Source of the DNA: Alphaproteobacteria bacterium
Lineage (GTDB): Bacteria; Pseudomonadota; Alphaproteobacteria; Rhodospirillales; Casp-alpha2
Assembly (NCBI GenBank): GCA_024279135.1
Contig: JAJRRU010000004.1
Coordinates: 1 to 64,000 of the forward strand
DNA length: 64,000 nucleotides
Direction of reading: 5' to 3'
The stretch's first letter is position 1; every line of letters starts with the position of its first letter. A program made the translations under genes and the position numbers. Positions 17,985 through 54,635 of the stretch are shown in pieces. The notes below the pieces were generated by a model. It was not told where the DNA came from, ran no database searches, and saw only the letters and a list, made by a program, of their open reading frames with translations.

Positions 17985-17992
17985 TCAAGAAC

Positions 17993-26434: not shown

Positions 26435-27901
26435 TTAGTCCATGATGCCAGACAATTCGCACAGACGCTCCATGAAGCGTGCCATGGCTTGAACAGCGTA
26501 ACGGGTTGAACCTTCCAGAATATCACCTTTTTCATCGGTGGTTCCCAGACCCAGTGACATTTTGACGTTGGCGTCATAAGCGAGGCAAGGAATGATCCCC
26601 ATTAATTTACCTGCCGTCTGTGGTAAAGCCGTACCGGCGTACATGTCCTCAATAGAAAATATTGGCCATCCCATCTTGCCGTCTTTCCAAGTATCCTGAT
26701 AGTTAACTTCGACACCGCAGCTACCGTAGTCTTTGTCGATGGTAACATTTTCCATGAGCCCGGAATCTATTTTGCCGAACTCTTCGGTAACGATACCGTG
26801 GAAGATGTCACAGTTTCGGTGGAACTGATCGCGATTATCAAGCAGAACCCGCAAGGTGGCAATGACACCCATAAGAGATTCTTTGCCAGGATCAACCTGT
26901 ACATAAGCGGCTTTTGCATGGGATATCAATCCGCCCATCCGAGGACCGGAAACGCCCAGCCCGCGAGCCAATGGAACAATGGCTTCTTCCTTGCCGATCG
27001 CCAGACCACATGTGGTGCCGCCACTGGCCTTATCCATACTGAACAGCATCATATCGGCTTCGGCTTTACGAATATCCAGGCAATGGAATGGAATAGCCGC
27101 AGCAGCATCGATGACGTAAGGGACGTTATAGTGTTTCGAGAGACGAGCGATTTCTTTGGTCAGGATTGGTGTGTCTTCTTCATCAACATCGCTATAGCCG
27201 TAGGATGGGTTAGTGTAGCCAATGGATGTAAAGCCTGTCAGCATGCTTTCATGCCGTTTGGCCATTTCCTCGATTTTAATCGCTGTGGCTTTCCCATCAA
27301 CATGGGTTAGCTGTGCACATGGATTGTACTTAAGCCCGTGACAGCTGTAATCGGCACCTTCCATAGGAACCATAAGAGTGTCGAGGTTGTTCAAGCGCCG
27401 TCCAAGGAAACCAAACTCGCCAGCGGTCACGCCGCGATCAGCAAATGCGTCTTTGTACTTCGGTGGGAAGGGTCGCCCGTAGCCACCATGGTGGTGAACA
27501 TGACGCTCGAATGGTGCAATATAACGTGCACGGTAATTGTCTCCACGTCCGGCAATCGGGGGGGTGAACAACGTATCAGAGCTAACCATCACCAACGCCT
27601 CACAGGTGCTGGCCGTTACCGCATCATATTCGTCACCGTAGTATTCTTTAACGAGTTTGCGAATCTCGAAATCCAGATTGCCACTATTTACAATCTTGCG
27701 GTGTCCACCATCAACCGCATCCGAAATTTCCTTTCGAAGCAGCCCGTGACACTCCGAAATCATTCCCGAAAGCCCAACCTTGCCAAGAAGTTCATCCGGA
27801 AATCCGATCTCACCGGGGATTTTTGCTGCTTCAGCAAATATCTGACCTCTGATATCAGAGAGATGTTGGTACATCTCGATTTTATACTTCCATTTCGACA
27901 T
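26435..27901 (-). CDS. PLP-dependent fold-type I enzyme of unknown specificity
   Basis: A 488-residue protein resembling aminotransferase class V/SelA-like PLP enzymes. Asp265 (YVIDAAAAIP) should contact the pyridine nitrogen, and Lys291 in SMDKASGG should carry the PLP Schiff base. An unusual His-rich stretch HVHHHGGYGRPFPP lies at residues 134-147. The start at 27901 is preferred over the longer 27976 because it has an AGGAG ribosome site and removes a hydrophobic lead with no homology pattern. It is transcribed alone, with its own terminator and two inverted repeats upstream. It could be a lyase, desulfurase or aminotransferase; I cannot say which. Confidence 0.8.
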   Translation of the reverse strand: MSKWKYKIEMYQHLSDIRGQIFAEAAKIPGEIGFPDELLGKVGLSGMISECHGLLRKEISDAVDGGHRKIVNSGNLDFEIRKLVKEYYGDEYDAVTASTCEALVMVSSDTLFTPPIAGRGDNYRARYIAPFERHVHHHGGYGRPFPPKYKDAFADRGVTAGEFGFLGRRLNNLDTLMVPMEGADYSCHGLKYNPCAQLTHVDGKATAIKIEEMAKRHESMLTGFTSIGYTNPSYGYSDVDEEDTPILTKEIARLSKHYNVPYVIDAAAAIPFHCLDIRKAEADMMLFSMDKASGGTTCGLAIGKEEAIVPLARGLGVSGPRMGGLISHAKAAYVQVDPGKESLMGVIATLRVLLDNRDQFHRNCDIFHGIVTEEFGKIDSGLMENVTIDKDYGSCGVEVNYQDTWKDGKMGWPIFSIEDMYAGTALPQTAGKLMGIIPCLAYDANVKMSLGLGTTDEKGDILEGSTRYAVQAMARFMERLCELSGIMD

Positions 27902-27971
27902 AAAGGGGCTCCTGTAATTGATTGGTGAAATTGATAATAGTCTTGGGAGCATGATAGACGGACAGAAAAAT

Positions 27972-28017
27972 TTCACAAGTTATTACATGATTGTGAATGA
28001 ATATTCTTATATATGAA
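27972..28017. promoter_or_regulatory. Two operator-like sites upstream of the PLP gene
   Basis: TTCACAA (27972-27978) and TTGTGAA (27991-27997) are a perfect inverted repeat with a 12-bp spacer. Next to it, TTCTTATATATGAA (28004-28017) matches 13 of 14 bases of the site TTCTTAAATATGAA before the ALDH operon at 57.9 kb. They lie 70-116 bp upstream of the PLP-enzyme start. An IclR-type regulator is the likely ligand. Confidence 0.5.
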
Positions 28018-28905: not shown

Positions 28906-30669
28906 ATGCTGCAATTGAAACGGCGAGATTTGATTCAAGAGGCAGAGTTGGTGCCATACGGGAATTTGCTTGCAGCCGGTCGTATGATTGCCCGCGATTG
29001 GCAAGTCGGTCCATGTGCATTCCTCGAATACACGGACCACACTTCCGAAGCCAGTTACAAGCGGGCGCAGATGGCCGCAGGCAATTTGATGCAGCATGCC
29101 CATGTTGGATTCCGGGAGATTTCAAAAAGCGTTGAAGCCTGCAAAGAGATCTATGAGCGGTGTAACAGACATGGCGCCGTCGTTGATCGTTACGGACTGT
29201 GTCTTGATTGGTCGATGGGCTATCCGGCTGATGTGCGGAAAAACCGCCCGCGTGGCACCGGGATGATCCTCAATGGTCCGGAGGATTTCGTTAAAATAAC
29301 CTCTGCTGCACCCGTGGCACCACATTTTGGCGATTTCGTTCTGGGCTTGCCGAATGCCGTTGAGAATACCAAGGCGGCGCTCGCTGCGGGATCGACATCA
29401 CTTGGAAATCTGGGCCAGTACTTTACCTTTCGCCTGCCGCACTGGGATGATGACGTAGCGACCACCGAGGCGACAATTACCGCTCTGGGGTTGATTGTGG
29501 CGCAAGATGTAGAGGTGTTAATCCATTCAAATTTGGATGATGGGTTCGCCGCCATGTTCATGGATCTGAGTTCGTGCCTGGGGATGGTGTTGATTGAAAA
29601 ATGGATCATTGAAGATCTGATAGGCGGGCAGGTTTCCCATTGTTTTGGGCATCATTTTGCGGACCCGGTGATCCGGAATGCCTTTCAAAGTGCTTTAAAC
29701 AGGGTATCAACGACACCGGGAACCATGATTTTCGGCAGCACAGTCAGCTATCGTTCAACACCGGCGGGCAATTATGCCAGTCTCGCGAGCTACATGCTGG
29801 CTGATATCATCGGACAACGCCGGCACCCGAGCGGACATGCGCTCAATCCCGTTCCGGTAACCGAAAATGAGCGCATTCCCGATATCGATGAAATAATTGA
29901 CGCACAAATTTTTGCCCATCGACTGGTAGAACATGCCACATATTATGAGCCGATGCTGGGGTGGGATAAAGTTGATCAGATCGCCGACACCATCGTTGAG
30001 GGTGGCCGTCGCTTCCGGGATAATGTTCTCAAAGGATTGCATAACGCAGGCATTGATACGAATGATGCAATGGAGCTAATGCTCGCTATACGCCGGTTGG
30101 GTCCAAAGCGTATGGAAAAATTATTTGGTGTTGGGCTGCTTGATACTGACAATAATAACGGACGTATTCCACAGGTTCCTACAACCACAATTGTTGACTT
30201 AAATGACATGTCGATGGCCGTCATTGAAAATGCCGACATCACCATCGTGGATGAAATTTCCCGGGCTGGCCTGAAATGCATAATAGCAACAACCGATGTT
30301 CATGAACACGGGAAGTACCTTGTTGAGAGGGTGTTATCCCATCTTGGCGTGGATATTATTGATGGTGGAGTGGCTGTGGACCCTGATGATCTGGTCAGAA
30401 CTGCGAAACTCAATGACATCGATTTTATCGCCCTGAGCACATATAACGGGATAGCTCTTAGATATATTGAGGAATTGAAAGGTGAAATGAAGAGGGCCTC
30501 TCTCAATCTTCCAGTCCTTGTCGGCGGTAAGCTGAACCAGATACCGGCGGATACAAATTCCAGCTTGCCGATTGATGTCACTTCAGAGATTCGTGCGCTA
30601 GATGTTGTGGTGTGTGATGAAATAGAAATGATGATACCGGCACTTCATATGCTGGCTCGAGAAACCTAA
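28906..30669 (+). CDS. Fused glutamate-mutase-E-like / cobalamin-binding protein
   Basis: A 587-residue cytoplasmic protein. Residues about 455-580 form a B12-binding domain: DVHEHG (464-469) is the DxHxxG base-off motif with His466 as cobalt ligand, S511 lies in the SxL-equivalent position (ALSTYNG) and VGGKLN (539-544) is the nucleotide-tail motif. Residues about 90-410 resemble the TIM barrel of methylaspartate (glutamate) mutase E, notably AAGSTSLGNLGQYFTFRLPH and NPVPVTENERIPDIDEI. Glutamate mutase normally has separate E and S chains; here both are on one chain, with the B12 part C-terminal. The start has a GGTGGAG ribosome site. The next gene starts directly after its stop. It may be an isomerase of an amino acid or its derivative; a methyl-carrier role is less likely given the mutase-like barrel. 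Substrate unknown. Confidence 0.75.
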   Translation: MLQLKRRDLIQEAELVPYGNLLAAGRMIARDWQVGPCAFLEYTDHTSEASYKRAQMAAGNLMQHAHVGFREISKSVEACKEIYERCNRHGAVVDRYGLCLDWSMGYPADVRKNRPRGTGMILNGPEDFVKITSAAPVAPHFGDFVLGLPNAVENTKAALAAGSTSLGNLGQYFTFRLPHWDDDVATTEATITALGLIVAQDVEVLIHSNLDDGFAAMFMDLSSCLGMVLIEKWIIEDLIGGQVSHCFGHHFADPVIRNAFQSALNRVSTTPGTMIFGSTVSYRSTPAGNYASLASYMLADIIGQRRHPSGHALNPVPVTENERIPDIDEIIDAQIFAHRLVEHATYYEPMLGWDKVDQIADTIVEGGRRFRDNVLKGLHNAGIDTNDAMELMLAIRRLGPKRMEKLFGVGLLDTDNNNGRIPQVPTTTIVDLNDMSMAVIENADITIVDEISRAGLKCIIATTDVHEHGKYLVERVLSHLGVDIIDGGVAVDPDDLVRTAKLNDIDFIALSTYNGIALRYIEELKGEMKRASLNLPVLVGGKLNQIPADTNSSLPIDVTSEIRALDVVVCDEIEMMIPALHMLARET

Positions 30670-32610
30670 ATGAATATCGATACGTCAGTGTTGTCCAACC
30701 CGTTACTGTTAGCACTCGCTCCCGGCGTATTGATTTTGTCATTATGCATAATAACGGGGTTACGCGCTCGCCTCTGGCGTCGAGGTCGAAAACAGCCGGG
30801 TTTGCGGTTTTGCAATTTGTTATTGGTCCCAAAACGCTATCTTGTTGATCTCCACAATATCGTAGCGCGTGACACCCTCAGCGCACACATGCACGCCGCG
30901 AGCGCCGCTGGCTTCTGCCTGGCATTATTTTCCCTGCTGGTTTATTCCGTTGTATCCGGGATTGATGGAGAAAAACTGGCTGGCTGGGTTACTCTTGTCT
31001 CGTCCATTATCATGTTGGGCGGCATCATAGCGGTGTATGGACGTCGTTACGCACACCCTGTGGGGACAAGCGGGCAATTATCAAAGGGCATCTGGTTACA
31101 GCAAATTTTTCTACTCTTTATCGTCGCGGTATGCATGTTTGTAATAGGCCTGCTTGCCGTTTTCGATAGCTGGATTACTTCAGAATTCATTCTGTTACGG
31201 GTTTTGGTAACAGGGATTTTAATAACTACGGTTTGCGTTCTTGGCGTTACAGCCATGTATGGCGGTCTTCTGAAGCATGTTGTCGCGGGTGTGTTTCACC
31301 TTGCATTTCATCCTCGTCCCGAACGATTTAGAGAGGGGGGGATTTCAAGCGCCCTACAGCCGCTTGATTTCGAACAAGGTCGGCTTGGCATAGAGAAAGC
31401 AGAAGATTTCAAATGGAACATGCTGTTGGGGTTTGACGCCTGTGTGCAATGCGGACGGTGTGAAGTCGCATGCCCGGCATTTGCCGCAGGTATGCCTTTA
31501 AATCCAAAGAAAATGATTCAGGATTTCGTGGTCGGAATGCAAGGAGGGAAGATATGCTTTCCTTACGCCGGAAGACCACACCCCGGAGTTGATCCGAAAA
31601 CCCAACAGCATATGAAATCCGGGACTATACTTCCCGGTTTGGTGCCGGGCGAAACAATCTGGTCCTGTACGACCTGTCGCGCGTGCGTTCAAGAATGCCC
31701 GATGATGATCGAACATGTTGATGCTGTTATTGATATGCGTCGTTTTCAAACTCTGGAGCTCGGTAATTTACCGAGCATTGCCCCCGCAACCTTGCAAATC
31801 ATTCGGGAAACAGACAATGCTGCCGGGCGTTGTCTTTCTGAACGCCTGGACTGGACTGCCGGGCTTGAGCTGAATAAATTTTCGACGGTTAAGACAATGG
31901 ACGTATTGCTATGGCTTGGAAACGGTGCCTTCGTCCAACGCAACCAACGTACGTTACGAGCACTGGTTACGCTTCTCAACCGGGCGAATGTCCGCTTCGC
32001 GGTATTGGCAGATGAAGAACTCGACAGTGGTGATTTAGCACGACGGCTCGGAGATGAAGTGACCTTTCAAAATCTTGCCCGCCGTAATATTGAGATACTC
32101 TCAAAGTACCGGTTCGATACAATTGTTACGGCGGATCCTCACGATTTCCATAGCCTGAAAAATGAATACCCTGCATTTGGTGGGCACTATACAGTGAAAC
32201 ACCATACGACATTTCTCTGCCAATTGATTGATCGTGGAAAGCTGGCCAAGAGTGCTTTCAATCAATCCCCTGCATCTGTGACATATCATGATCCATGTTA
32301 TTTGGGTCGGTACAACGGGGAGGTTGTTATGCCGAGGCGATTACTTCGGTTTGCCGGCATGGAGCTGATAGAAATGAAACGGGCAGGTTTAAATTCTCGT
32401 TGCTGTGGCGGCGGCGGCGGCTCGCAGTATACTGATATTCCCGGCGAGCGCCGCATTGCAGATATTCGTATGGAGGATGCCAGAGATACAGGGGCATCCA
32501 CACTTGTAGTAGCCTGCCCCAATTGTGCGGTAATGTTGGAAGGTACGACTGGCAAGCGGTTAGCGGTTAAGGATATCGCGGAGATTCTTGCCGAGAGGTT
32601 GGAGAGTTAA
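30670..32610 (+). CDS. Membrane Fe-S oxidoreductase, DgcB-like
   Basis: A 646-residue protein with about five membrane segments in residues 10-215, then two 4Fe-4S cysteine sets (CVQCGRCEVACP near 258 and CTTCRACVQECP near 337) and a C-terminal CCG-type domain (HDPCYLGRY, RCCGGGGGS, ACPNCAVML). This is the plan of DgcB-type proteins that take electrons from ETF and pass them to the quinone pool in dimethylglycine and related N-demethylation systems; HdrD/GlpC are more distant relatives. It starts immediately after the B12-protein stop and is directly followed by the ETF alpha-like gene, so one electron-transfer unit is clear. Confidence 0.88.
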   Translation: MNIDTSVLSNPLLLALAPGVLILSLCIITGLRARLWRRGRKQPGLRFCNLLLVPKRYLVDLHNIVARDTLSAHMHAASAAGFCLALFSLLVYSVVSGIDGEKLAGWVTLVSSIIMLGGIIAVYGRRYAHPVGTSGQLSKGIWLQQIFLLFIVAVCMFVIGLLAVFDSWITSEFILLRVLVTGILITTVCVLGVTAMYGGLLKHVVAGVFHLAFHPRPERFREGGISSALQPLDFEQGRLGIEKAEDFKWNMLLGFDACVQCGRCEVACPAFAAGMPLNPKKMIQDFVVGMQGGKICFPYAGRPHPGVDPKTQQHMKSGTILPGLVPGETIWSCTTCRACVQECPMMIEHVDAVIDMRRFQTLELGNLPSIAPATLQIIRETDNAAGRCLSERLDWTAGLELNKFSTVKTMDVLLWLGNGAFVQRNQRTLRALVTLLNRANVRFAVLADEELDSGDLARRLGDEVTFQNLARRNIEILSKYRFDTIVTADPHDFHSLKNEYPAFGGHYTVKHHTTFLCQLIDRGKLAKSAFNQSPASVTYHDPCYLGRYNGEVVMPRRLLRFAGMELIEMKRAGLNSRCCGGGGGSQYTDIPGERRIADIRMEDARDTGASTLVVACPNCAVMLEGTTGKRLAVKDIAEILAERLES

Positions 32611-33822
32611 ATGCCAAAAAACAAGGATCGAAGGATCCGACGTGACCCACGTAGAGAAAGAATTGCACGGCAGGGAAAGTCGGTGGGCGGGTCTGAGCAT
32701 TTTGATATTGATGGCAGAGCGGATCGAGTACGAAAGTTCCCACATTTCTGCCGAAGTGTCACTTATGGTGAGCGGGTACGGATTAATCCGTTTGCTGCCA
32801 CCCAGAATATCCGGTGCTCGAAATCTGAATCACAGCCAAAGAAACACGAATCAAAATCAGATATTAAACCCAGCATCATCACAGACCCATCCTACTTTGT
32901 CGTTGTCGTTCCTGATTTGCTCGCCGGACGCCCCACAGACCACGATCGATTGACTTTTTCAGCTGCTCGCCAACTGGCAAGTGATACTGATGGGGCTGTA
33001 CTGGCTGTTCTTTTCGAAGACTCTGATTTCGATTTCGGCAAACTCGGAGTTGACCGGATCATGAAATTCAGCACCGTTTTGCTTGCGGGATATTCACCTG
33101 AATACCGTGCAGATGCAATTGTTTCTATTGCACAGGAGACACCTGTTCGTCACATTCTTTTTCCCGACAGTAAATTCGGGAGTGGTGATTTGGGGCGTCG
33201 GGTAGCCGCAAGATTGGGGTGCCGCCCAGCATCAGGGGTTCGGCAAATCGGGGAAGGCCAGATTGTCTGTAAAAGTGCTGATCCATTGCTGGAGATACAT
33301 CGCTCTCTTTGCACAATTATGTTGATGGACCCTGAAATTGATGTGGAAACGACTCAAATATATTGTGAAGGACGGGAATTAAACGCACCACTTGTGGATA
33401 TATCAATGCCGAAATTGCAGGACGGCGGCCTGGAACAGGTTGATGTGTCTGGCATTCCCCTGTCAGAGGCTTCGTTAATCCTTGCTGCTGGAGCTGGGGT
33501 CTCCGATTGGCAGGAGTTCTATAATCTGGCTGAATCACTTGGCGCCGCTATCGCAGGCAGCCGTGTCGTCGTCGACAAGGGATTTGTGGGACGTGATCGT
33601 CAGGTTGGGGCCAGTGGTGTTTCAGTTGCCGGACGTTGTTACATTGCACTTGGCATATCCGGCGCACCCCAACACTTACAGGGGATCGTTGATTGCGATT
33701 TGGTAATCGCGGTGAACACCGACCCGGGATGTCCCATGTCCTTGCGTGCCGATCTCATGATTGTTGGAGACGTAAACTCAATAATGCCGATATTAAGGGA
33801 AATTATCAGTGACAGGCTTTGA
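32611..33822 (+). CDS. Electron-transfer flavoprotein alpha-like subunit
   Basis: A 403-residue protein. The C-terminal FAD domain is typical of ETF alpha: AGSRVVVDKGFVGRDRQVG, then SVAGRCYIALGISGAPQHLQ and VNTDPGCPM. The first 80 residues are a polar, strongly basic extension (KNKDRRIRRDPRRERIARQ) not found in housekeeping EtfA but seen in DgcB-linked versions. It should bind FAD with the beta-like subunit, whose start overlaps its end by 14 bp, and deliver electrons to the DgcB-like protein upstream. Confidence 0.88.
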   Translation: MPKNKDRRIRRDPRRERIARQGKSVGGSEHFDIDGRADRVRKFPHFCRSVTYGERVRINPFAATQNIRCSKSESQPKKHESKSDIKPSIITDPSYFVVVVPDLLAGRPTDHDRLTFSAARQLASDTDGAVLAVLFEDSDFDFGKLGVDRIMKFSTVLLAGYSPEYRADAIVSIAQETPVRHILFPDSKFGSGDLGRRVAARLGCRPASGVRQIGEGQIVCKSADPLLEIHRSLCTIMLMDPEIDVETTQIYCEGRELNAPLVDISMPKLQDGGLEQVDVSGIPLSEASLILAAGAGVSDWQEFYNLAESLGAAIAGSRVVVDKGFVGRDRQVGASGVSVAGRCYIALGISGAPQHLQGIVDCDLVIAVNTDPGCPMSLRADLMIVGDVNSIMPILREIISDRL

Positions 33823-34651
33823 AAAGCAAAACGGCCAGAGACTCTTGGTTGCCGTCCTGATTTCAACAGGACGCAACCCTGTATCAGGGGTCGTTCGACG
33901 GGCAGAACTTGATGCGCGTGCGCTTGAAATTGTCCTTGCACTCGATACGGATGTGCAGTTTGAGGTTATTCATGCCGGAGACCCGGAGAACCCGGTCCTG
34001 AAGGACTACCTAGGTATGGGCCTCTCTGACATAACAGTGCTTCCATGTGATCCGGACGATGACCCGGCAAGCAGCCTTGTGTGGTACCTGAATCGCATCC
34101 GCCCTGACGTGGTTTTGACAGGCAATCGTGCCGAAACAGGAGAAGGCTCTGGTTTTATTCCTTATGCAGTTGCCCAGCAACTCGGGGCATTGTTTGTCGC
34201 TCAAATTACCGCACTGAAATTTCTTGCAGATAGCAAATTGCAGTTAAGCCAATCCATACCAGGTGGCTACCGCAGAAGATTGTATGCCCAGCCACCAATT
34301 GTTGGTAGCGTCGATGGCTCTGCTCTCCCGCCACGCATTCCAGCCTATGCACGATCACAACGGGGCAAAATTCATATCGTGGAAGCTCCTCGTCAAAATG
34401 ATGCCCAGTCGGCAGATTGGAATATTTTGACTGGGCGTAATAAACCTAAGAAAATTACCCGCTATCATGGTGAAACCATGGCAGAGCGACTGGACTTTGC
34501 GTGGGGGCAGGATCGTACTGGTGGTACGACAATCGAGGCACGCAAAAACCCCCGTAATGGGGCAGACGCTATACATCGTGCCCTCGGCGATGCCGGTCTG
34601 CTGGACCGCGCGGGTAAGGGTGACAATAGCAAGCTTACAGACATTACCTGA
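33809..34651 (+). CDS. Electron-transfer flavoprotein beta-like subunit
   Basis: A 280-residue ETF beta-type protein using a GTG start inside the alpha gene. Landmarks are GRNPVSGVVRRAELDARALE (beta-fold start), VVLTGNRAETGEGSGFIPY (nucleotide-binding loop) and AVAQQLGALFVAQITAL. The recognition loop is diverged from housekeeping EtfB, which suits a dedicated partner of the DgcA-like enzyme. It receives electrons from the demethylase flavoprotein encoded after a 158-bp gap in which I see no terminator. Confidence 0.85.
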   Translation: MTGFEKQNGQRLLVAVLISTGRNPVSGVVRRAELDARALEIVLALDTDVQFEVIHAGDPENPVLKDYLGMGLSDITVLPCDPDDDPASSLVWYLNRIRPDVVLTGNRAETGEGSGFIPYAVAQQLGALFVAQITALKFLADSKLQLSQSIPGGYRRRLYAQPPIVGSVDGSALPPRIPAYARSQRGKIHIVEAPRQNDAQSADWNILTGRNKPKKITRYHGETMAERLDFAWGQDRTGGTTIEARKNPRNGADAIHRALGDAGLLDRAGKGDNSKLTDIT

Positions 34652-34809
34652 TGACAAATTTTATCATTGATAAATTGATTAGTTTTTCTGGTCTCCCGAA
34701 TAGGAAAACTCACTAACGTCTCAATTTTTTTTATGCAAAGTTCTTATTGAAATGGACGTGGTTAAATTCTGTGCCCCGATCATGAGCTTAGACTGGAAAA
34801 ATTTGTGGC

Positions 34810-36849
34810 ATGTCAAATCTTGAAATTCTTTTAAAGCCATTCCGGCTCCGCCATCTTGAACTGAAAAATCGCGTCATAACCACATCTCACGCACCTGCTT
34901 ATGCTGAAGACGGAATGCCTCAGGAACGCTACCAGCTTTACCAGGAGGAGCGAGCTAAGGGTGGAGTTGCAATGATCATGTTCGGAGGCTCATCCACGGT
35001 GTCGCCCGACAGCCCGGCCACCTTTGGCCAAATATGTATCGACGATGACAGGGTGATACCTTATCTGCGGGAACTTGCTGACCGAATCCATTATTACAAT
35101 ACTGCCATCATTTGTCAGATCACTCATATGGGTCGGCGATCGCGTTGGGATATCGGAAGCTGGCTACCTTCCGTAGCACCTTCATCGAGATGGGAGCCCG
35201 AACACCAATCCTTTCCAAAAGAAATGGAAGATTGGGATTTTCGTCGTATTGTAGATGACTTTGTGGCTGCAGTCCGACGTTGTCGTGAAGCAAAACTGGA
35301 TGGCGTCGAATTATCTTTCAATGCCCAACACCTCATTCCCCAATTTTGGTCACCAGGCGTCAATCACCGTACCGATGACTATGGCGGCAGCCTTGAAAAT
35401 CGAATGCGGTTTGGCTTCGAGATACTTGATGCAGTGCGAAAAGAAATCGGTGATGCGTTTATTGTCGGCATACGATTATCGGTTGATGAGTTGCTCGACA
35501 ATGGCCTCTCGGATGCAGATTGCCGAGAGATAGCCGTTATATTGGCGCGATCCGGAAAAGTCGATTTTTTTAATGTCGTGGGCGGGCAACCATCTGATTT
35601 TCCATCTCATGCGGTGAACATGGCTGGCATGGCCTTCCCCGTTGCGCCATTCCTCCATTTAGCTAGTGCCTTAAAATCCGTTGTTGAGATACCTGTAATA
35701 CAGGCCCATCGGATAAGCGATCTCCATACTGCGGCTAAAGCGGTTGAGGACAGACATCTCGATCTTGTCGGGCTTACCCGACCCCACATGGCTGACCCGT
35801 ATATCATGAAAAAATTGATGGAGGGCCGGGTCGACGACATCCGTCAATGCATTGGTGCAAACTATTGCATAGATCGCCTTTTTGCTGGCAAGGAGGCGTT
35901 GTGCATTCAAGCTCCGGCAACTGGGCGGGAAGCTACGATGCCCCACATTATTGCCAAGGCCAGTGAAAAGAAGCAGGCGGTGGTGATTGGCGGCGGTCCA
36001 GGTGGGTTAGAAGCGAGCAGGGTTCTGGCCGAGCGGGGTCATCATGTGGTCCTGTTTGAAGCAACTGAGCACCTGGGAGGCCAGGTTAAACTCGCCGCTT
36101 GCGCAACATGGCGTAACGGGTTGGATGGTATCACCCGCTGGCTTGTCAGCCAGATTGACAAGCTTGGCGTTATTGTTCATCTGTCCACGCTTGCTGACGC
36201 TGATAGGGTGAAGGCTGAGAAACCCGATATTGTTATTGTTGCAACGGGGGGGCATGCCAACAAAGGTTACTTTAAGGGCAATGATCTTGCTGTTTCCACT
36301 TGGGATATCATTTCCGGTCAAATTGAACCGGGTGAGAATGTGTTGCTATATGACGACAATGATGGCCATCAGGGAATGTCTTGCGCCGAGGTGCTGGCAA
36401 AAAAGGGAAGCAAGGTGGAAATTGTGACACCTGACCGCTTTACCGGTCGAGACGTTGGTGGAACCAGTTTTCCTGTATATCTGCGAAATCTGTATCAGAC
36501 TGATACGATCTTCTCCCCCGATCTCAAGTTAATCGAAATTCAACGTGAGGGGAATCTATTGATCCCAGTGCTGCGGAATATTTATTCGGGTATTGAGGAG
36601 GAGCGTGCTGTAGATCAAGTAGTTTGCGAACATGGATCACTTCCAAACGATGAGCTGTATTTTGCGCTCAAGAATTATTCGACCAACCTTGGTGAAGTTG
36701 ATTACTACGCCTTACGTGAAAATAGCCCTCAAAACGTTACAACCAACCCCGATGGAGAATTCGTTTTGTTCCGGGTTGGTGACGCAGTTTCAAGTCGCAA
36801 CATCCATGCTGCAATATTTGATTCACTGCGTCTTTGCAAGGACTTGTAA
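34810..36849 (+). CDS. TMADH/DgcA-like FMN, Fe-S and FAD oxidoreductase
   Basis: A 679-residue enzyme of the trimethylamine-dehydrogenase/dienoyl-CoA-reductase family. Residues 1-345 form the old-yellow-enzyme barrel (LKNRVITTSHAP, DYGGSLENRMRF), and residues about 390-650 the FAD/NAD-type domains (AVVIGGGPGGLEASRVLAE). The Fe-S loop reads CIGANYCIDRLFAGKEALC: the second of the four usual cysteines is Ala, leaving three, so the cluster may be altered or use another ligand. DgcA-type proteins oxidatively demethylate tertiary amines and reduce a partner ETF, here encoded directly upstream. Substrate unknown; dimethylglycine or an N-methyl cyclic amino acid are options. Confidence 0.88.
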   Translation: MSNLEILLKPFRLRHLELKNRVITTSHAPAYAEDGMPQERYQLYQEERAKGGVAMIMFGGSSTVSPDSPATFGQICIDDDRVIPYLRELADRIHYYNTAIICQITHMGRRSRWDIGSWLPSVAPSSRWEPEHQSFPKEMEDWDFRRIVDDFVAAVRRCREAKLDGVELSFNAQHLIPQFWSPGVNHRTDDYGGSLENRMRFGFEILDAVRKEIGDAFIVGIRLSVDELLDNGLSDADCREIAVILARSGKVDFFNVVGGQPSDFPSHAVNMAGMAFPVAPFLHLASALKSVVEIPVIQAHRISDLHTAAKAVEDRHLDLVGLTRPHMADPYIMKKLMEGRVDDIRQCIGANYCIDRLFAGKEALCIQAPATGREATMPHIIAKASEKKQAVVIGGGPGGLEASRVLAERGHHVVLFEATEHLGGQVKLAACATWRNGLDGITRWLVSQIDKLGVIVHLSTLADADRVKAEKPDIVIVATGGHANKGYFKGNDLAVSTWDIISGQIEPGENVLLYDDNDGHQGMSCAEVLAKKGSKVEIVTPDRFTGRDVGGTSFPVYLRNLYQTDTIFSPDLKLIEIQREGNLLIPVLRNIYSGIEEERAVDQVVCEHGSLPNDELYFALKNYSTNLGEVDYYALRENSPQNVTTNPDGEFVLFRVGDAVSSRNIHAAIFDSLRLCKDL

Positions 36850-36854
36850 CCGAT

Positions 36855-37814
36855 ATGCAGATGGTGAACGCCGAAGATATAAGTCGCGTCATGGAGTACC
36901 CGGGACTGGTTGCAGCCCTGCGCGAGGCACACTTGCAGGACATCTTGATTGAGCCTGAAATTCTCTTGTCACGTCCCTTGGATGGCGAAAGGCAAAACAA
37001 CTTCAATGTGTTTCCCGCATGGCAGGACGGTGTTGTATTCGGCGCAAAGCTGGTTTCGCTGTTTCCTGAAAATCTTCACAAAGCCGAAAGGCTTCCAATG
37101 GTTCAGGGTGTCTATGTTCTTTTTGATGGCAAGAATGGTTCGCCGGTTGCCGTTATCGATGGTACGGCATTAACCTATTGGAAAGCGGCTGCTGATTCAG
37201 CTCTTGGTGCTTCCCTGCTGGCCCGGAATGACATACAGAGTATGGTGATGGTGGGGGCAGGTGCGCTCTCGCCACATGTGATCTCCGCGCACCTGGCTAT
37301 CCGTCCCTCCCTGTCCAAGATCCGTATCTTTGATATCGATACCCAACGGGCGGAAGCGCTGGTTCAGCAATTCAACTCGCTAAACATGGATATCGCAGTT
37401 TCAGACACGCTAGAGCGTGATGTTGGAAATGCAGACCTGGTGTCATGTGCAACCACGGCACGCAAACCTGTCATCTGTGGTGGCTGGCTCAAACCCGGAA
37501 CCCATGTGGACCTCATCGGGGGGTGGACACCGGAGATGCGTGAAGTCGATGATGAAGCAATCAGGCATGCCAGTTTATATGTTGATTCTATTCTATTAGG
37601 TAAACGTTGCGGCGATATATCTAATCCATTGTCACGTGGAATTATTAGTGAGAGTGACATTCTTGGTGATTTGTTTGATTTGTGTCGGGGCTCAGTATCT
37701 GTTCGGCAAAATGAGAACAAAACCACAATATTCAAAAACGCTGGAGGCGGGCATCTTGATTTAATTGTTGCCCGCTATCTACTTGCTAAAATCAACTTAC
37801 CAGACATCGTGTGA
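36855..37814 (+). CDS. Ornithine cyclodeaminase/mu-crystallin family protein
   Basis: A 319-residue NAD(P)-binding protein. The N-terminal substrate part includes LLSRPLDGERQNNFNVFPAW split by a short loop and VFGAKLVSLFPEN; the Rossmann motif MVGAGALSPH (near residue 138) follows the usual ALTYWKAAADSALGAS helix; STWL-like DLIGGWTPEMREVDD comes later. Family members form proline from ornithine, or reduce delta-1-pyrroline-2-carboxylate and other cyclic imines. A TTG start at 36834 would overlap the upstream gene; the ATG at 36855 is preferred. In this operon an imine reductase or cyclic-imino-acid role would fit a demethylation product. Confidence 0.86.
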   Translation: MQMVNAEDISRVMEYPGLVAALREAHLQDILIEPEILLSRPLDGERQNNFNVFPAWQDGVVFGAKLVSLFPENLHKAERLPMVQGVYVLFDGKNGSPVAVIDGTALTYWKAAADSALGASLLARNDIQSMVMVGAGALSPHVISAHLAIRPSLSKIRIFDIDTQRAEALVQQFNSLNMDIAVSDTLERDVGNADLVSCATTARKPVICGGWLKPGTHVDLIGGWTPEMREVDDEAIRHASLYVDSILLGKRCGDISNPLSRGIISESDILGDLFDLCRGSVSVRQNENKTTIFKNAGGGHLDLIVARYLLAKINLPDIV

Positions 37815-37832
37815 AGGATAGAGGTTTATTGG

Positions 37833-39365
37833 ATGACCAGACGTACAGGTGGAGCGGCAAATACCCGGAAAATTCGGTCTCATGGCAATGCTATTGATCA
37901 ACTGCCATTTAAACAAGTGATCAACCCGTTCACACCGCTCGAAATTGTTTCAGCGGATGAATTGGAGAGTATTCATCAGACTTCTCTACGCATTCTCAAA
38001 GAGATCGGCATTAATTTTTTGCTTCCAGAGGCTCGAGAAATTTTTCGATGCGTAGGAGCTGATATTGATGGCGAGAGGGTCCGGCTTGATCCCGAATTGG
38101 TAGAAGCCTCAATTGCCTTGGCACCCCCCAGTTTCAAAATTCACGCCCGAAACCCAGCTCACTCTCTGATCTTCGGTGATAAGTACATGAACTTTGGCAC
38201 AATTGGTGGCCCGCCGTGGGTAACTGATCAAGACCGCGGAAGACGCTATGGCAACTATGAGGATTTCTGCGATCTTTTGCGTCTCGGCCAATCCCTGAAC
38301 ACAGCTCATCTAACTTCTGGCTACCCTGTAGAACCGGATGATATTGCGGTTCCGGTCCGGCACCTTAAAGCGACCATGGCGATGATCGAGTTAACCGATA
38401 AGGTTTTTAGAATTTATGCATCAAGCCGGGAGCGAATTCTCGACCAGTTAACAATGGTTCGAATTATGTGGGATATGACAGAGGAAGAGTTTGAAAATCA
38501 TCCGTGTGTCCATACAAATGTCAACGCAAATACCCCTATGCAGTACGATATCCCGATGACATGGGGGATAATTGAGATGGCTAAACGGAACCAACCTGTA
38601 GGGATTACACCATTTACATTAGCGGGTGCAATGGCGCCCGTGACGATAGCGGGGGCTCTGGCTCAACAAAATGCCGAAGCATTGGCAGGGATCACTTTGA
38701 CTCAATTGGTGCGCCCTGGTGCGCCGGTGATTTATGGTGGTTTTACATCGAACGTAAACATGAAAACAGGTTCTCCTTCCTTCGCAACCCCTGAGTTCGT
38801 CAAAGCGGCCATTATTACCGGACAGTTAACGCGTCGTTATAAGTTACCATTTCGCTCATCCAACACGAGCACATCCAATATTCCAGACGCCCAAAGTGCC
38901 TATGAATCCCAGACGTCTATCTGGTCGAGTGTCCTTAGTGGCGTCAATTATCTGCAACACGCACACGGGTGGATGGAAGGAAGCCTGTGTGCGTCGTATG
39001 AAAAATATATTCTCGATGCTGAGATGCTTCAGATGATCACCGAAGTCATGAAACCAGTCATAGTTAATTCAGATGAACTGGCATTTGATGCAATTCGCGA
39101 AGTGGGCCCTGGAGGCCATTTCTTTGGTGTTTCCCACACCATGGAACGCTACGAAACGGCATTCTATCACCCCTTGTTATCGGATCATCGCAATTTTGAA
39201 CCGTGGGCTGAAGATGGCGCTCAGGATGCCACAACCCGTGCTAATCACATCTATAAGAAATTGTTGTCAGATTACGAACAACCTCCCCTCAATCTAGCGA
39301 TACAGGAGGCGCTGAATACCTTTGTCAGGAAACGTGAAGATGAGGGGGGAGCTCATGTCTATTGA
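37833..39365 (+). CDS. MttB-family (trimethylamine methyltransferase-like) protein, second copy
   Basis: A 510-residue MttB-superfamily protein, clearly diverged from the first (20.3 kb). Shared landmarks: SLRILKEIGINFLLPEARE, HARNPAHSLIFG, a central APVTIAGALAQQNAEALAG and C-terminal GPGGHFFGVSHTMERYETAFY. No amber codon interrupts the frame, so pyrrolysine is not used. It starts 18 bp after the cyclodeaminase-family gene and is part of the operon headed by the B12 protein, the only cobalamin-binding protein in the window. Whether that protein serves as its methyl carrier, or an unlinked MtgC-like protein does, cannot be told. Confidence 0.85.
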   Translation: MTRRTGGAANTRKIRSHGNAIDQLPFKQVINPFTPLEIVSADELESIHQTSLRILKEIGINFLLPEAREIFRCVGADIDGERVRLDPELVEASIALAPPSFKIHARNPAHSLIFGDKYMNFGTIGGPPWVTDQDRGRRYGNYEDFCDLLRLGQSLNTAHLTSGYPVEPDDIAVPVRHLKATMAMIELTDKVFRIYASSRERILDQLTMVRIMWDMTEEEFENHPCVHTNVNANTPMQYDIPMTWGIIEMAKRNQPVGITPFTLAGAMAPVTIAGALAQQNAEALAGITLTQLVRPGAPVIYGGFTSNVNMKTGSPSFATPEFVKAAIITGQLTRRYKLPFRSSNTSTSNIPDAQSAYESQTSIWSSVLSGVNYLQHAHGWMEGSLCASYEKYILDAEMLQMITEVMKPVIVNSDELAFDAIREVGPGGHFFGVSHTMERYETAFYHPLLSDHRNFEPWAEDGAQDATTRANHIYKKLLSDYEQPPLNLAIQEALNTFVRKREDEGGAHVY

Positions 39366-39436
39366 GAACCCGCATAAAAGAGATGCAGCCATGATTGAGG
39401 GCGTACTAACTTTTAATTTGTATATAGGAAAACCAG

Positions 39437-40969
39437 ATGGACAACTTGAATAATCGGGATTTTGATGTGGTCATCATCGGAGGGGGGATCAATGGTGCCG
39501 CATCGGCGCAGCATTTGTCAGCAGCAGGTTACTCGGTTATGCTTGTGGAAAAGGCTGATTTTGCCTCGGGTACCAGCAGCACCTCCAGCCGGCTTCTGCA
39601 TTGTGGAATAAGATATCTAGTTCCCGGCAGTTCGGTATTTGAATTCGTTCGCCACCCCTCCCGTTTTCTGAATGGCTCCCGGATGGCACGCGATGCCATG
39701 CGATGTCGAAGCCAGTTTGTCAACGAGTCCGCAGAAAGAGTTAAATCATTTAATCTCTATTACCCTGTTTATCAAGAGGACCCCTTTAAGCCGTGGCAGG
39801 TTGACTTGGCTTTCAAGTTTCTTGATTGGCTGGGGCCCAGGGACGTCCCGCTTGATTATCAGAGGTTCCCTGTCTCGTCGGTTGCCAAGACTCCAATGCT
39901 CAAGTGGCTGCGTGACCAGGATAAGCTTACTGGAGTCGTTCGTTTTCGTGAGTACGTCTTTGATTGGCCGGAACGAATTGCTATGGATACGATCCTTGAC
40001 GCCGAACGTCTCGGCGCCGAGGTCTGTAATTATACTGCCGCAGTGGCTATAGAATCCCTTCCCGACAAACGCTGGCGTATTGAATTGGAGGATACCCGGG
40101 GCGATCAGGAACGAGTCAGTGTTCAGGGTTCCGTATTAATTAATATGGCCGGAATATGGATAGACCAGGTTAACCAGTTGTCCAGTAAGCCGGTTGGCCG
40201 CAAGATCACGGGCACAAAGGGTAGCCATATAGTCGTCAAACTACCACCAGAGTGTGCCGATTTCGGGATCGCGGCCATGCATCGGGAGAAGGAGCCTTTT
40301 TATTGCATACCCTGGCGTGGGCTGCATTTCTTTGGCCCGACAGAAACATTATTCGAGGGCAATATCGACGATATAAGGCCCAGTGAAGAAGAAATATTGT
40401 GGCTGTTGGAAGAGGCAAATTATCTTTTTCCTGGTATGGGTCTGCGGCGCTCGGACATACTCCATTCCTGGTCAGTAGTACGCCCTTTGACCTATGACCC
40501 GGATCAGCCTCGCGGCGCACGAGCACGAATACTATATGATTTGGCTGACGAAGGATTAAGCAACGCCTTCACAATGACAGCAGGCCCAATCTTCACGCAT
40601 CGGGTCGCAGGGCATGAGGTCCTTCAGGCGGTAGAGGGGAAGATCAGGCCATCGGGCTCACCCCAATCGCTCTCATATGCCCCGAGGATATTTTCAGGGA
40701 ACAAGAACTCACCAAGCTTGCTTGGGGACTGTGACCAGATCAGGTTATCTGATGTCCAGCATGTTGCCCAAAATGAGCACTGCTACACCCTGATGGATAT
40801 TCTTTGTCGTCGGTTGGGAGTTCATTGGACAGAGAGTATGGCATTCGATGCAGCGCAAGAAGCTGCCGAAGTTGCAGGAGCCGAATTGGGTTGGAATCAG
40901 GAGCGGGTTGATAAAGAAGTCGGAGATTATCGCGAGTACCTGACTAGATATTTTCTGGGTCCATTTTGA
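39437..40969 (+). CDS. GlpD-like FAD-dependent dehydrogenase
   Basis: A 510-residue FAD enzyme of the glycerol-3-phosphate dehydrogenase family. The dinucleotide motif VVIIGGGINGAASAQHL is at residues 10-26, followed by EKADFASGTSSTSSRLLHCG and the KGSHIVV segment before the substrate domain. The C-terminal helical domain typical of GlpD is present (residues about 420-500). No glpF/glpK/glpR lie nearby, and it closes the B12/ETF/MttB operon 71 bp after the MttB gene, so a different hydroxy or amino substrate is likely. Membrane association, as in GlpD, is possible. Confidence 0.82.
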   Translation: MDNLNNRDFDVVIIGGGINGAASAQHLSAAGYSVMLVEKADFASGTSSTSSRLLHCGIRYLVPGSSVFEFVRHPSRFLNGSRMARDAMRCRSQFVNESAERVKSFNLYYPVYQEDPFKPWQVDLAFKFLDWLGPRDVPLDYQRFPVSSVAKTPMLKWLRDQDKLTGVVRFREYVFDWPERIAMDTILDAERLGAEVCNYTAAVAIESLPDKRWRIELEDTRGDQERVSVQGSVLINMAGIWIDQVNQLSSKPVGRKITGTKGSHIVVKLPPECADFGIAAMHREKEPFYCIPWRGLHFFGPTETLFEGNIDDIRPSEEEILWLLEEANYLFPGMGLRRSDILHSWSVVRPLTYDPDQPRGARARILYDLADEGLSNAFTMTAGPIFTHRVAGHEVLQAVEGKIRPSGSPQSLSYAPRIFSGNKNSPSLLGDCDQIRLSDVQHVAQNEHCYTLMDILCRRLGVHWTESMAFDAAQEAAEVAGAELGWNQERVDKEVGDYREYLTRYFLGPF

Positions 40970-41119: not shown

Positions 41120-42040
41120 TTATCCAAATAATGTATCCTGATACTCCTGATGCAACCACTTGCGAAAGGCTACAATTTTGTGTTTTTTGGCCATCCAATT
41201 CTGACACACAATATTATAGGATAAAGCAACCGGTATAGCGTAATCAAAGGGGCGAACTAGGCGACCGGAAGCTAAATCGTCGGCAACAAGAAGCTTGCTG
41301 CTTAAAGCTACGCCGTGGCCGTCTACAGCAGCTTGGGTCGCCATGCTGGCAACGCTGAAAACGGGGCCTCTCGTTGCATCACACCCTTCCATGTTGGTGT
41401 CATCTAGCCACATTTGCCAGTTTGGATAACGTATCTTGCCAAATTCCATTTTTTCGATGTGCAATAATGTGTAATGGTGAAGGTTGCCTGGGTTCTGGAG
41501 GCCGGTTTTTCCCTCAAGCAACTTTGGGCTGCAAACTGGGAAAATAATATCGTTGTTCGTCAGGTTGTTGACGTAATATTCCTTATAAATATTGCAGCCA
41601 TACAATATTCCCACGTCGACATCTTCAATAGTGAGGTTCGGATCATTAATCTGGGCGTGAATTTGAACATCAAACTCAGGGCAAATTTTGGAAAATTTGG
41701 CAAGCCGAGGAGCCAGCCACTTGGAGCACAATGTAGGCGGTGCAATAACTTTCAAGGTTTGATTGACGCGTTTGTCCTGAGCTTCTGATACGACTTCGGC
41801 TAACCGGTCGAAGGCCTCAGTTAGGCCCGGAAGGCAATCCTTACCGACATCAGTCAATACCATGAGGTTGCCATTTCGAGAAAACAGTTTCACGCCGAGA
41901 TAACTCTCGAGGGACTTCATATGATGGCTTATCGCTGCAGGAGTGACGCACAATTCGTCTGCTGCAAGTGTCAGGCTTAGATGTCGTGCAGTCGCCTCGA
42001 ATGAGCGAAGAGAATTTAGCGAGGGTAATCGACGTTTCAC
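41120..42040 (-). CDS. LysR-family regulator (GcvA-like)
   Basis: A 306-residue LysR-type regulator. The N-terminal winged helix (residues 5-65) reads LRSFEATARHLSLTLAADEL and CVTPAAISHHMKSLE, close to the GcvA/AmpR branch. The effector domain (about 95-300) starts with LKVIAPPTLCSKWLAPRLAKF. The gene is divergent from the MmgE/PrpD-family gene and the following peptide-type transporter operon, its probable targets. Two related AT-rich direct repeats lie in the shared gap. Confidence 0.9.
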   Translation of the reverse strand: MKRRLPSLNSLRSFEATARHLSLTLAADELCVTPAAISHHMKSLESYLGVKLFSRNGNLMVLTDVGKDCLPGLTEAFDRLAEVVSEAQDKRVNQTLKVIAPPTLCSKWLAPRLAKFSKICPEFDVQIHAQINDPNLTIEDVDVGILYGCNIYKEYYVNNLTNNDIIFPVCSPKLLEGKTGLQNPGNLHHYTLLHIEKMEFGKIRYPNWQMWLDDTNMEGCDATRGPVFSVASMATQAAVDGHGVALSSKLLVADDLASGRLVRPFDYAIPVALSYNIVCQNWMAKKHKIVAFRKWLHQEYQDTLFG

Positions 42041-42177: not shown

Positions 42178-42217
42178 GGTGAACATTAGGTTGTTTGAGG
42201 TAGGGGACATTTTTTGC

Positions 42218-43594
42218 ATGACCGCCATCAACACGTTCGCTGAGTGGATAGCATCAACACCGATAATTCAGGACACTGTGCCTCAGGATATGGCACGAGA
42301 TGCGCTACTCGATACGCTGGCGTGTATCTGTGCTGGCCTTGACGAACCGGCGTCTGTAATTGTCCGCCAGACGATTAGCGACTGGGGTGCCGGAACTTCA
42401 TCGTTGATTGGAGCCACTGATAAAGTTTCCACCCCTTGGGCCGCAATGGCAAATGCGACGGCGGCACATGCGCTTGACCTGGATGATTGGGACTACACTT
42501 CACATTGTCATATCAGTGCAGTTCTGATTCCCGCACTCCTCGCATTGGGTGAACAGCTTGAATGTTCGGGAGCTCAATTTCTAGACGCTTTCATTGTTGG
42601 TGTCGAAATAACCATGCGGATTGGTGAAGTGGTCAATCCAGATCACCTTAACAACGGGTGGCATCCAACATCGACTATCGGAGCCCTGGGTGCAGCGGCT
42701 TCATGCGCTCGATTATATGGCTTAGATAGTAATAAGTCCGCTGCTGCGTTAAGCTTGGCGACAAGCATGGGGGCGGGCTCCATTGCACAGTTTGGCACAA
42801 TGGCAAAGCCTACACATGCCGGGCTAGCCGCCCAGTCAGGCGTTGTTGCAGCGAGTTTGGCTGCCGCCGGGATAAGTGCGGCGGGCGATACTCTCGATGG
42901 CGCCTGGGGGTTTATTAACCTACGTACTCCATCAATAAATAATGATTTCAGTAGCCTGAAGGATAAGCTCGGCGCTCCGTATGCAGTTGAACAGCACGGT
43001 TTAATCAAGAAGCGGTACGCTTGCTGTGGCGGCATTCATCGGTCAATTGATGGCCTTCGCCAGCTTCGCGCAAAGAACGGGTTGCGAGTTGATGACATAG
43101 CGTCTGTAATCGTACGGTTGCCCGCACCGGAGGCGAACTACCTGAATGTCGCCATTCCAGACAATGAGATGCAGGCGCGCTTTAGTATTCATTATTGCCT
43201 TGCCGTCGTACTACTAGAGGGTAGCCTTAGTATTAGTGACTTCACCTTAGAGGCCATCTCCCGCCCACAAGTACGTGCATTAATTCCATTGATTTTCCTT
43301 GAGCCATTCGATATCGAAGGCCAGGAGACAAACAAACCAATTGGGCCTCCTCATACTATTATAGTCAATTTGACAAACGGGAATCAACTTGAAATCGCCG
43401 TTGAGCATGCCATGGGATGGCCGCAGGAACCGTTTAGTGAAGAGGATTTAGCCTCGAAGTTTTACGAACATTGCACCCCGATTTTCGGCGTTGACAATAC
43501 AAAAGTGATATTCTCGATGATTCATAACTTTAAGGAAATGAAAAATATCTGCGCGTTGCAAAATTATCTGAATAAGAGGGGGGCAGATAACTGA
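42218..43594 (+). CDS. MmgE/PrpD-family protein
   Basis: A 458-residue protein of the MmgE/PrpD family, which includes 2-methylcitrate dehydratase, aconitate decarboxylase and iminodisuccinate epimerase-type enzymes. Recognisable parts are FAEWIAS at the start, the helix MANATAAHALDLDDWD that holds the active-site region, GWHPTSTIGALGAAA and KKRYACCGGIHRSIDGL. The ATG at 42218 with a GGTAGGGG-like ribosome site fits the family start better than the GTG at 42179. It is the first gene on this side of the LysR regulator, before the second peptide-type transporter; no prpB/prpC lie nearby, so a methylcitrate role is unlikely. Confidence 0.85.
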   Translation: MTAINTFAEWIASTPIIQDTVPQDMARDALLDTLACICAGLDEPASVIVRQTISDWGAGTSSLIGATDKVSTPWAAMANATAAHALDLDDWDYTSHCHISAVLIPALLALGEQLECSGAQFLDAFIVGVEITMRIGEVVNPDHLNNGWHPTSTIGALGAAASCARLYGLDSNKSAAALSLATSMGAGSIAQFGTMAKPTHAGLAAQSGVVAASLAAAGISAAGDTLDGAWGFINLRTPSINNDFSSLKDKLGAPYAVEQHGLIKKRYACCGGIHRSIDGLRQLRAKNGLRVDDIASVIVRLPAPEANYLNVAIPDNEMQARFSIHYCLAVVLLEGSLSISDFTLEAISRPQVRALIPLIFLEPFDIEGQETNKPIGPPHTIIVNLTNGNQLEIAVEHAMGWPQEPFSEEDLASKFYEHCTPIFGVDNTKVIFSMIHNFKEMKNICALQNYLNKRGADN

Positions 43595-45419: not shown

Positions 45420-45445
45420 TGCGCATTCTTTTCAGTTGACAACTT

Positions 45446-45472
45446 AAAGCCGACTCATTCGAGTCGGCTTTT
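45446..45472 (+). terminator. Terminator-like stem-loop after the binding-protein gene
   Basis: AAAGCCGACTC (45446-45456) and GAGTCGGCTTT (45461-45471) form a perfect 11-bp stem with a 4-nt loop and a short TTTT tail. It lies between the binding-protein gene and the permease gene 146 bp further on, so most transcripts may stop here and the permeases receive read-through or use their own promoter. Confidence 0.85.
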
Positions 45473-45617
45473 CGTGCCATATGGCTAACCTGTATTTGTT
45501 ATACTTCAGAAAGAGTTTTTTCAGAGATGGGTTGTGATAAATTCTCTGGGTAATTTTCTGTCTATATTTTGAGAGTGTTATTATTAAGATCAAATAATTT
45601 AAATTTTTTGACAGGTG

Positions 45618-46577: not shown

Positions 46578-46605
46578 AATTATTCTTGATGGAGGGCTTC
46601 TGATT

Positions 46606-53188: not shown

Positions 53189-53310
53189 GTTCGCTCTTTC
53201 ATGGTTATTTATGCTCTGTAACACAGTTTATGTTGCTCTTTTGCAATAGAAAATACGGTAAACCAAACAAAAGAACAGGTCCATATATTTTTCATATTGC
53301 GGAATTATTA

Positions 53311-53324
53311 ATCTCATATTAGAA
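53311..53324. promoter_or_regulatory. Candidate IclR-regulon site (decarboxylase/dadA-like gap)
   Basis: ATCTCATATTAGAA, extended by TT, matches 12 of 16 bases of the site upstream of iclR (TTCTCAAATGTGAATT). It lies in the 170-bp gap between the divergent AruI-like and DadA-like genes, 35 bp before the latter. It is the weakest member of the set. Confidence 0.3.
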
Positions 53325-53358
53325 TTTTACATATTTTTATGATATAAGGATTTTTTCA

Positions 53359-54618: not shown

Positions 54619-54635
54619 TACTGCTTGGTATAAGA

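Follow-up and report, generated by a model that had tools for sequence, protein, structure and literature searches.

Positions 28906 to 40969 of a 64,000-nucleotide (nt) stretch of an alphaproteobacterial genome (Rhodospirillales, Casp-alpha2; assembly GCA_024279135.1, contig JAJRRU010000004.1; the whole stretch is referred to as the window) carry a plus-strand run of exactly eight consecutive open reading frames (ORFs), in which genes for two predicted routes of N-demethylation stand behind a gene, ORF1, for a predicted adenosylcobalamin isomerase. We judge the chances to be about even that this operon serves, by the steps proposed below, to degrade under aerobic conditions an N-methylated amino acid that has a quaternary nitrogen and a carboxylate and is not glycine betaine. 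The demethylation steps are known; their combination and the proposed role of the isomerase are new. The original prediction, made by a model from the letters, had described an eight-gene operon at these coordinates, with DgcA/DgcB/electron transfer flavoprotein (ETF) genes in one run with MttB, OCD-type and GlpD-like genes, and the ORFs agree with it on coordinates, as Pfam and NCBIfam do on domain families. The demethylation genes from which it argued are real; the first gene, ORF1, had been passed over in its reasons. The genes, in order, are:

28906–30669, plus strand: ORF1, 587 amino acids (aa), predicted fused adenosylcobalamin isomerase (barrel at about 14–430, B12 domain at about 455–587)
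30670–32610, plus strand: DgcB-type membrane/Fe-S electron acceptor, 646 aa (DUF3483, 4Fe-4S and CCG domains)
32611–33822, plus strand: EtfA, 403 aa (ETF_alpha and ETF; NF051845 316 bits, cut-off 600)
33809–34651, plus strand: EtfB, 280 aa, GTG start, 14-nt overlap with etfA (ETF; NF051844 204.8 bits, cut-off 350)
34810–36849, plus strand: DgcA/StcD-type OYE flavoprotein, 679 aa, predicted oxidative N-demethylase (Oxidored_FMN and Rossmann domains)
36834–37814, plus strand: OCD/mu-crystallin family imine (ketimine) reductase, 326 aa (PF02423; TTG start as listed, ATG at 36855 possible)
37833–39365, plus strand: non-pyrrolysine MttB superfamily methyltransferase, 510 aa, no in-frame amber codon (PF06253 3–500/500, 640.6 bits)
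39437–40969, plus strand: GlpD-like FAD oxidoreductase, 510 aa, predicted amine/amino-acid oxidase or dehydrogenase (DAO and DAO_C)

The intergenic gaps along the run are 0, 0, –14, 158, –16, 18 and 71 nt; the short or zero gaps expected between most genes were thus borne out (–16 to 71 nt, save for the 158 nt before the OYE gene). Scanning of 28.0–43.9 kb detected 10 terminator-like sites (15.0 expected) and 20 promoter-like sites (23.0 expected), both at chance level, with no terminator-like site inside any intergenic gap of the operon. An Rfam search of 18–55 kb gave no match, including no cobalamin riboswitch near the operon. Since the scans were at chance level and Rfam gave no match, it is from the spacing that we infer that the eight genes are likely to be co-transcribed.

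Parts of the gene set recur elsewhere. MttB was present on four (L147, L150, L152 and L155) of 15 stretches from relatives that had been selected by their OYE alone, out of 30 good OYE matches listed; in L150 and L152 it is 54–56% identical to the operon MttB, and L150 has the order OYE, arginase-family protein, MttB, MmgE/PrpD-like. Similarly, all four plasmid loci opened for the GlpD-like gene (L110, L111, L112 and L114, from 12 listed matches among 559 records) carry OYE, and two of them, L110 and L114, also have an OCD gene and a related ATP-binding cassette (ABC) binding protein (34–35%). These pairings, OYE with MttB and OYE with the GlpD-like gene (and OCD), are the best arguments against the operon being a chance collection. 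The MttB plasmid locus that was opened (L113, one of 15 listed) has no OYE, DgcB or GlpD-like gene.

The OYE, DgcB and EtfAB genes form the complete set of a DgcAB/ETF oxidative N-demethylase. DgcAB/EtfAB is the dimethylglycine system and StcD the N-methylproline demethylase; like them, the operon has OYE, DgcB, EtfA and EtfB, here 38–57% identical to the proteins of an Azospirillum cluster. The OYE is 57% identical to that of the Azospirillum plasmid cluster (Rieske enzyme, OYE, DgcB, EtfAB, ProVW), DgcB is 48% identical to the DgcB-type protein of Azospirillum L106, and the CxGAxYC form of the Fe-S motif is shared by the operon OYE and 10 of the 11 homologs compared, the exception being an outgroup copy. 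A mandelate-racemase-family neighbour of a Neorhizobium OYE was considered as a hydroxyproline-betaine epimerase and gained no support, as it matches 2poz best and none of the 60 of 129 matches shown bears the name of that epimerase. Unlike the DgcAB and StcD systems, the operon has no Rieske GbcA/Stc2 partner anywhere in the host genome (0 matches to the ring-hydroxylating alpha subunit, PF00848; controls matched in 4/14) and has MttB instead. In view of this, MttB would have to stand in for Stc2/GbcA, being the only visible candidate to open a quaternary betaine.

The operon MttB, whose PDB matches include the glycine betaine methyltransferase 9yce, is one of seven MttB genes in the host genome. 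Corrinoid protein, activase and tetrahydrofolate methyltransferase genes lie outside the operon, on contig C12 of the same genome, where an MttB gene is accompanied by a corrinoid protein with cap, DUF1638, MTHFR, a pterin-binding protein, RACo/RamA and an FAD+GCV_T oxidase; an ETF-like pair (etfA and etfB, identified by eye) lies beside this cluster. With these possible partners on C12, the corrinoid route that had been proposed for MttB is feasible. MetH was judged absent from the host genome, its activation domain not being found. Work on Ruegeria pomeroyi (Mausz et al. 2025, PMC12478193) describes an MtgC/MtgD/RamA/DUF1638/MetF-type set as shown or proposed for aerobic glycine betaine demethylation and states that MetH is absent from most such genomes; it also reports that a single genome may hold as many as seven pfam06253 genes, a number read there as pointing to other methylated substrates. 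The host resembles this system (MtgBCD/MtgE) in its predicted aerobic MttB-family demethylation, in the same set on C12, in its seven genes and in the absence of MetH. In contrast, the operon MttB is 41% identical to the MtgB-type paralog on C12 and falls into a separate clade (13-row tree); it is coupled to DgcA/DgcB/ETF and not to an FAD+GCV_T protein, and the operon adds the putative isomerase, OCD and GlpD-like enzymes.

Because the C12 cluster includes an FAD+GCV_T oxidase of its own, and full-length DgcB was found in the host genome in this operon only, the substrate of the operon is probably not glycine betaine, and the operon is probably not needed for dimethylglycine. Known MttB substrates, phosphocholine aside, are carboxylated quaternary amines (PMC12155760, available excerpts). 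The nearest paralog of the operon MttB (57%) is one of two MttB genes on contig C17 of the host. These two paralogs (L172:4108-10071) lie on opposite strands and flank a ferredoxin-like gene and an aldehyde:ferredoxin oxidoreductase gene.

ORF1 is most likely a single-chain adenosylcobalamin isomerase in which a glutamate-mutase-type barrel is fused to a B12 domain; we read it so because of the predicted glutamate-mutase fold, the intact His-on motif and the lack of a methyl-carrier cap. An AlphaFold model, built from 61 aligned family members, has a mean predicted local distance difference test (pLDDT) score of 93.4 and a predicted template modelling (pTM) score of 0.93. In VIA-align, its top match is glutamate mutase epsilon 1cb7_B (Z 29.1, 366 residues, 3.5 Å, 9% identity), with 6h9e_B, another glutamate mutase epsilon, at Z 28.9 (375 residues, 3.5 Å), followed by lysine 5,6-aminomutase (Z 26.6), ornithine 4,5-aminomutase (22.9) and methylmalonyl-CoA mutase (about 20). 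The C-terminal part matches the glutamate mutase small subunit (Z 15.3), MtaC (15.4) and MttC (14.5). Foldseek ranks methylmalonyl-CoA mutases first (E 5e-14) and glutamate mutase at rank 21. The sole Pfam match of ORF1 is B12-binding, at residues 462–545. The base-off/His-on motif DxHxxG...S...GG is intact across the family alignment (D464, H466 and G540-G541 in 61/61, S511 in 60/61, G469 in 59/61). The four-helix cap PF02607 (B12-binding_2) was not found in ORF1, although the same library detects it in the C12 corrinoid protein. An adenosyltransferase is encoded in the host genome.

Judged by its sequence, ORF1 is not a glutamate mutase. It resembles MutE/MutS in the predicted barrel (Z 29) and the DxHxxG B12 domain, and differs in being one fused chain with 9% identity. 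PF06368 (Met_asp_mut_E) matched neither ORF1 nor anything else in the host genome, and four weak PF06368 matches in other genomes, considered as kin, showed no similarity to ORF1. A PDB profile search with ORF1 matched the B12 domain alone, plus weak unrelated entries such as adrenodoxin; comparison with a MutE profile was negative, that profile being poor (two loci, one long GC-rich frame, doubtful ends). At His+11, the spacing of the lysine that binds pyridoxal phosphate (PLP) in OraE, the four commonest residues of the ORF1 family are Leu (47), Phe (8), Met (4) and Cys (1) (n = 61). This comparison covers one position, and other lysines of the family may still be a PLP site. In aminomutases, the PLP-binding lysine of the B12 domain is Lys629 of OraE and Lys144 of lysine 5,6-aminomutase (PMC3958899, available excerpts).

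From this gene content we infer a substrate, an order of steps and the catalytic activities as follows. MttB would move one methyl group to the corrinoid protein MtgC of C12, while MtgD, MetF and RamA of C12 would hand it on to tetrahydrofolate and maintain the cobalt in its reduced state. The DgcA/StcD-type OYE would then strip a second methyl group oxidatively, with electrons passing via DgcB and EtfAB to the respiratory chain. The GlpD-like flavoenzyme and the OCD reductase would act on the resulting secondary or cyclic imine/amine. Finally, ORF1 with adenosylcobalamin would carry out a radical 1,2-rearrangement of the carbon skeleton, allowing entry to central metabolism.

A scan of one genome per species yielded 116 ORF1 relatives; the 80 best loci were retained (47–56% identity in the best segment). 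Their hosts include Alpha- and Gammaproteobacteria, Chloroflexota, one Acidobacteriota genome and two Asgard archaea; Bacteroidota were not counted, as a Mesoflavibacter-titled record groups with alphaproteobacteria by sequence. Neighbour gene content was assessed by tblastn over all 80 loci (43 exceed 21 kb; many contigs are short), and neighbour positions in the 69 loci where gene calling recovered ORF1. The usual companion is a ProC-like gene, present in 42 of the 80 loci and located immediately downstream of ORF1 in 30 of 69 and upstream in one. PhyH was found in 11/80 loci and a Stc2/GbcA-like Rieske gene in three, directly downstream of the ORF1 relative in L074 and L062 (in the remaining locus it is an incomplete match at a distance); MttB was near ORF1 in three loci, OYE in two and OCD in one. 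A ProC-like gene of the ORF1-partner type was not found in the host genome, in a search that had no positive control.

Closer to the host, five of 60 relatives of its genome have a full-length ORF1 relative, none of them beside the operon's other genes on the stretches read, and the one same-genus genome searched has ORF1 at 49% in a setting of ProC-like and aldehyde:ferredoxin oxidoreductase genes. Plasmid matches comprise nine records, eight of them with a coverage of 80% or more of the query. A 70-row tree places the window ORF1 together with two copies from rhizobial plasmids and two from Rhodovibrionaceae. Close to a Phyllobacterium relative are genes with the annotations proline racemase family, aldehyde dehydrogenase, FAD oxidoreductase and DapA. 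Three ORF1-family genes stand in tandem in a Rhodospirillaceae genome (L054:3199-8403), and in two relatives of the host (L013:5667-7430 and L011:4962-6794) ORF1 and its ProC-like gene adjoin a probable aldehyde:ferredoxin oxidoreductase gene, called by Pfam in L013 and by eye in L011. Thus, the ORF1 family is widespread, and this is the only demethylation operon in which a member was seen. In searches of open-licence literature, neither this family nor this operon was found described, nor, going by titles and the opening lines of abstracts, any uncharacterised B12 mutase with a pyrroline-5-carboxylate reductase.

Four weak hints suggest that the substrate has a cyclic imino acid skeleton. An imino acid is suggested by the best NCBIfam model of the OCD protein, NF004793 (pyrroline-2-carboxylate/piperideine-2-carboxylate reductase), which it matches at 303.1 bits, below the cut-off of 322; by the ProC-like partners of ORF1 elsewhere; by the Stc2/GbcA-like enzyme behind ORF1 in two loci; and by the annotated genes near the Phyllobacterium relative. 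Homarine is neither supported nor excluded as the substrate. A broader proposal is that the family consists of widespread single-chain, glutamate-mutase-like adenosylcobalamin isomerases acting on cyclic or imine-forming amino acids, which would account for the recurring reductase partner (ProC-like elsewhere, OCD here), and was here built into a betaine operon, bringing three chemistries to bear on one substrate; this is tentative, and we place it well short of an even chance.

Several observations weigh against the pathway proposed above. DgcB, EtfA, EtfB and the GlpD-like gene were found by tblastn in none of the 80 ORF1 loci, so that the tie of ORF1 to the remaining genes comes from this one operon, and ORF1 relatives mostly stand with a ProC-like gene or with housekeeping genes such as gyrB and clpX, the 51 immediate neighbours other than the ProC-like ones being mixed. 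ORF1 with these partners is thus a single case, on a stretch bearing transposase-like ORFs. The ORF1 barrel showed no sequence similarity to glutamate mutase. The 158-nt gap upstream of OYE is the most plausible transcript break and may split the run in two, and the promoter and terminator scans were uninformative.

The strongest alternative, which we consider doubtful, is that the run is a mosaic of two or three independent units (ORF1-dgcB-etfAB and OYE-OCD-mttB-glpD-like) on a stretch rich in mobile elements, with no demethylation role for ORF1. It draws on the single occurrence of ORF1 with these partners, on the different ORF1 setting in the same-genus genome, on the G+C content of the window, 48.0%, which is below that of five of six other stretches of the host genome (45.5–54.1%), and on the following features, judged by eye:

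16056–19144: integrase-like and transposase-like ORFs (those at 16056 and 18098 among them)
25635–26222: integrase-like or transposase-like ORF
50989–51519: integrase-like or transposase-like ORF

Set against it are the zero gaps joining ORF1, dgcB and etfA, and the fact that in the known DgcAB system OYE works with DgcB/EtfAB, which ties both halves of the run together.

An account closest to the original prediction takes the substrate to be a proline-type betaine, from which MttB and DgcAB/ETF remove methyl groups before OCD-type imine chemistry completes the breakdown, with ORF1 incidental. The MttB and DgcAB/ETF parts of that scheme are real; the proline-type substrate was a guess, given that the OCD score lies below the cut-off of the model that would support it. 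We consider this account unlikely. Proline can be formed from proline betaine with neither an isomerase nor a pyrroline-2-carboxylate reductase, and we know of no proline betaine demethylation scheme that requires an adenosylcobalamin isomerase. The nearest plasmid OYE, in the Azospirillum cluster with the Rieske enzyme, DgcB, EtfAB and ProVW, speaks for it, although that cluster may equally serve glycine betaine; so do the ProC-like genes adjoining ORF1 relatives and the surroundings of the Phyllobacterium copy, which resemble a hydroxyproline-breakdown cluster. Further support comes from Eubacterium limosum MtpB, an MttB-superfamily member that demethylates proline betaine, likewise a carboxylate-bearing quaternary amino acid (PMC12155760); E. 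limosum differs in being an anaerobic acetogen, and the available excerpts of that account contain no DgcAB or isomerase.

It is highly improbable that ORF1 is instead the corrinoid methyl carrier of the operon MttB, its barrel being a methyl-accepting or docking domain: MttB proteins do require a corrinoid partner and MetH is the highest-scoring match of the ORF1 B12 domain (49.9 bits vs 28.5 for the glutamate mutase S chain), but ORF1 lacks the cap domain, its barrel aligns much better with glutamate mutase (Z 29) than with dihydropteroate synthase (Z 14), MttB is never adjacent in the three of 80 ORF1 loci that have it, and the host genome has a dedicated MtgC-type protein.

Several genes downstream of the operon may belong to the same pathway:

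41120–42040, minus strand: LysR-type regulator (GcvA-like), possible operon regulator (NF008352 304.9 bits, cut-off 288; LysR domains)
42179–43594, plus strand: MmgE/PrpD-family protein, possible pathway extension (PF03972/PF19305)
43842–49328, plus strand: SBP_bac_5 ABC importer, possible substrate uptake (SBP_bac_5 match), comprising a binding protein (43842–45419), permease-like proteins (45615–46577 and 46606–47487) and a fused ATPase-like protein (47484–49328)

An MmgE/PrpD-like gene adjoins OYE in L148, and L150 has one in the run that contains OYE. The GlpD-like protein of the operon scores 138–144 bits against GlpD models (cut-offs 352–360).

Other units of the window were also noted. 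The minus-strand segment 20325–24314 encodes another MttB (502 aa) next to a dimethylglycine-dehydrogenase-like FAD+GCV_T protein, likely a further unit for an N-methyl compound, with an aspartate-dehydrogenase-like gene (24574–25347) divergent from it. A 513-aa protein (26435–27976, minus strand), divergent from ORF1, may be a poorly known PLP-type protein, to go by a weak class-V aminotransferase signal (E 1.5e-6); NCBIfam gave nothing for it at 1e-20, and the PDB a single weak match (E 0.0048). Genes for a 5-guanidino-2-oxopentanoate decarboxylase (532 bits, cut-off 500) and for DadA-like, GMC-like and aldehyde dehydrogenase proteins at 51596–57799 are likely an arginine/guanidino-acid catabolic cluster.

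The operon narrows the chemistry through its fixed partners and brings to light a family of predicted B12-dependent isomerases of bacteria and Asgard archaea, with a barrel that has no Pfam model and an uncharacterised reaction. Adenosylcobalamin isomerase reactions are few, and a new one would be notable for that reason. If the broader proposal is true, it would add both a new B12 reaction and a new route of osmolyte degradation, in which methylcobalamin, flavin and adenosylcobalamin radical chemistry would meet in one pathway; genes of the operon would suffice to test every step.

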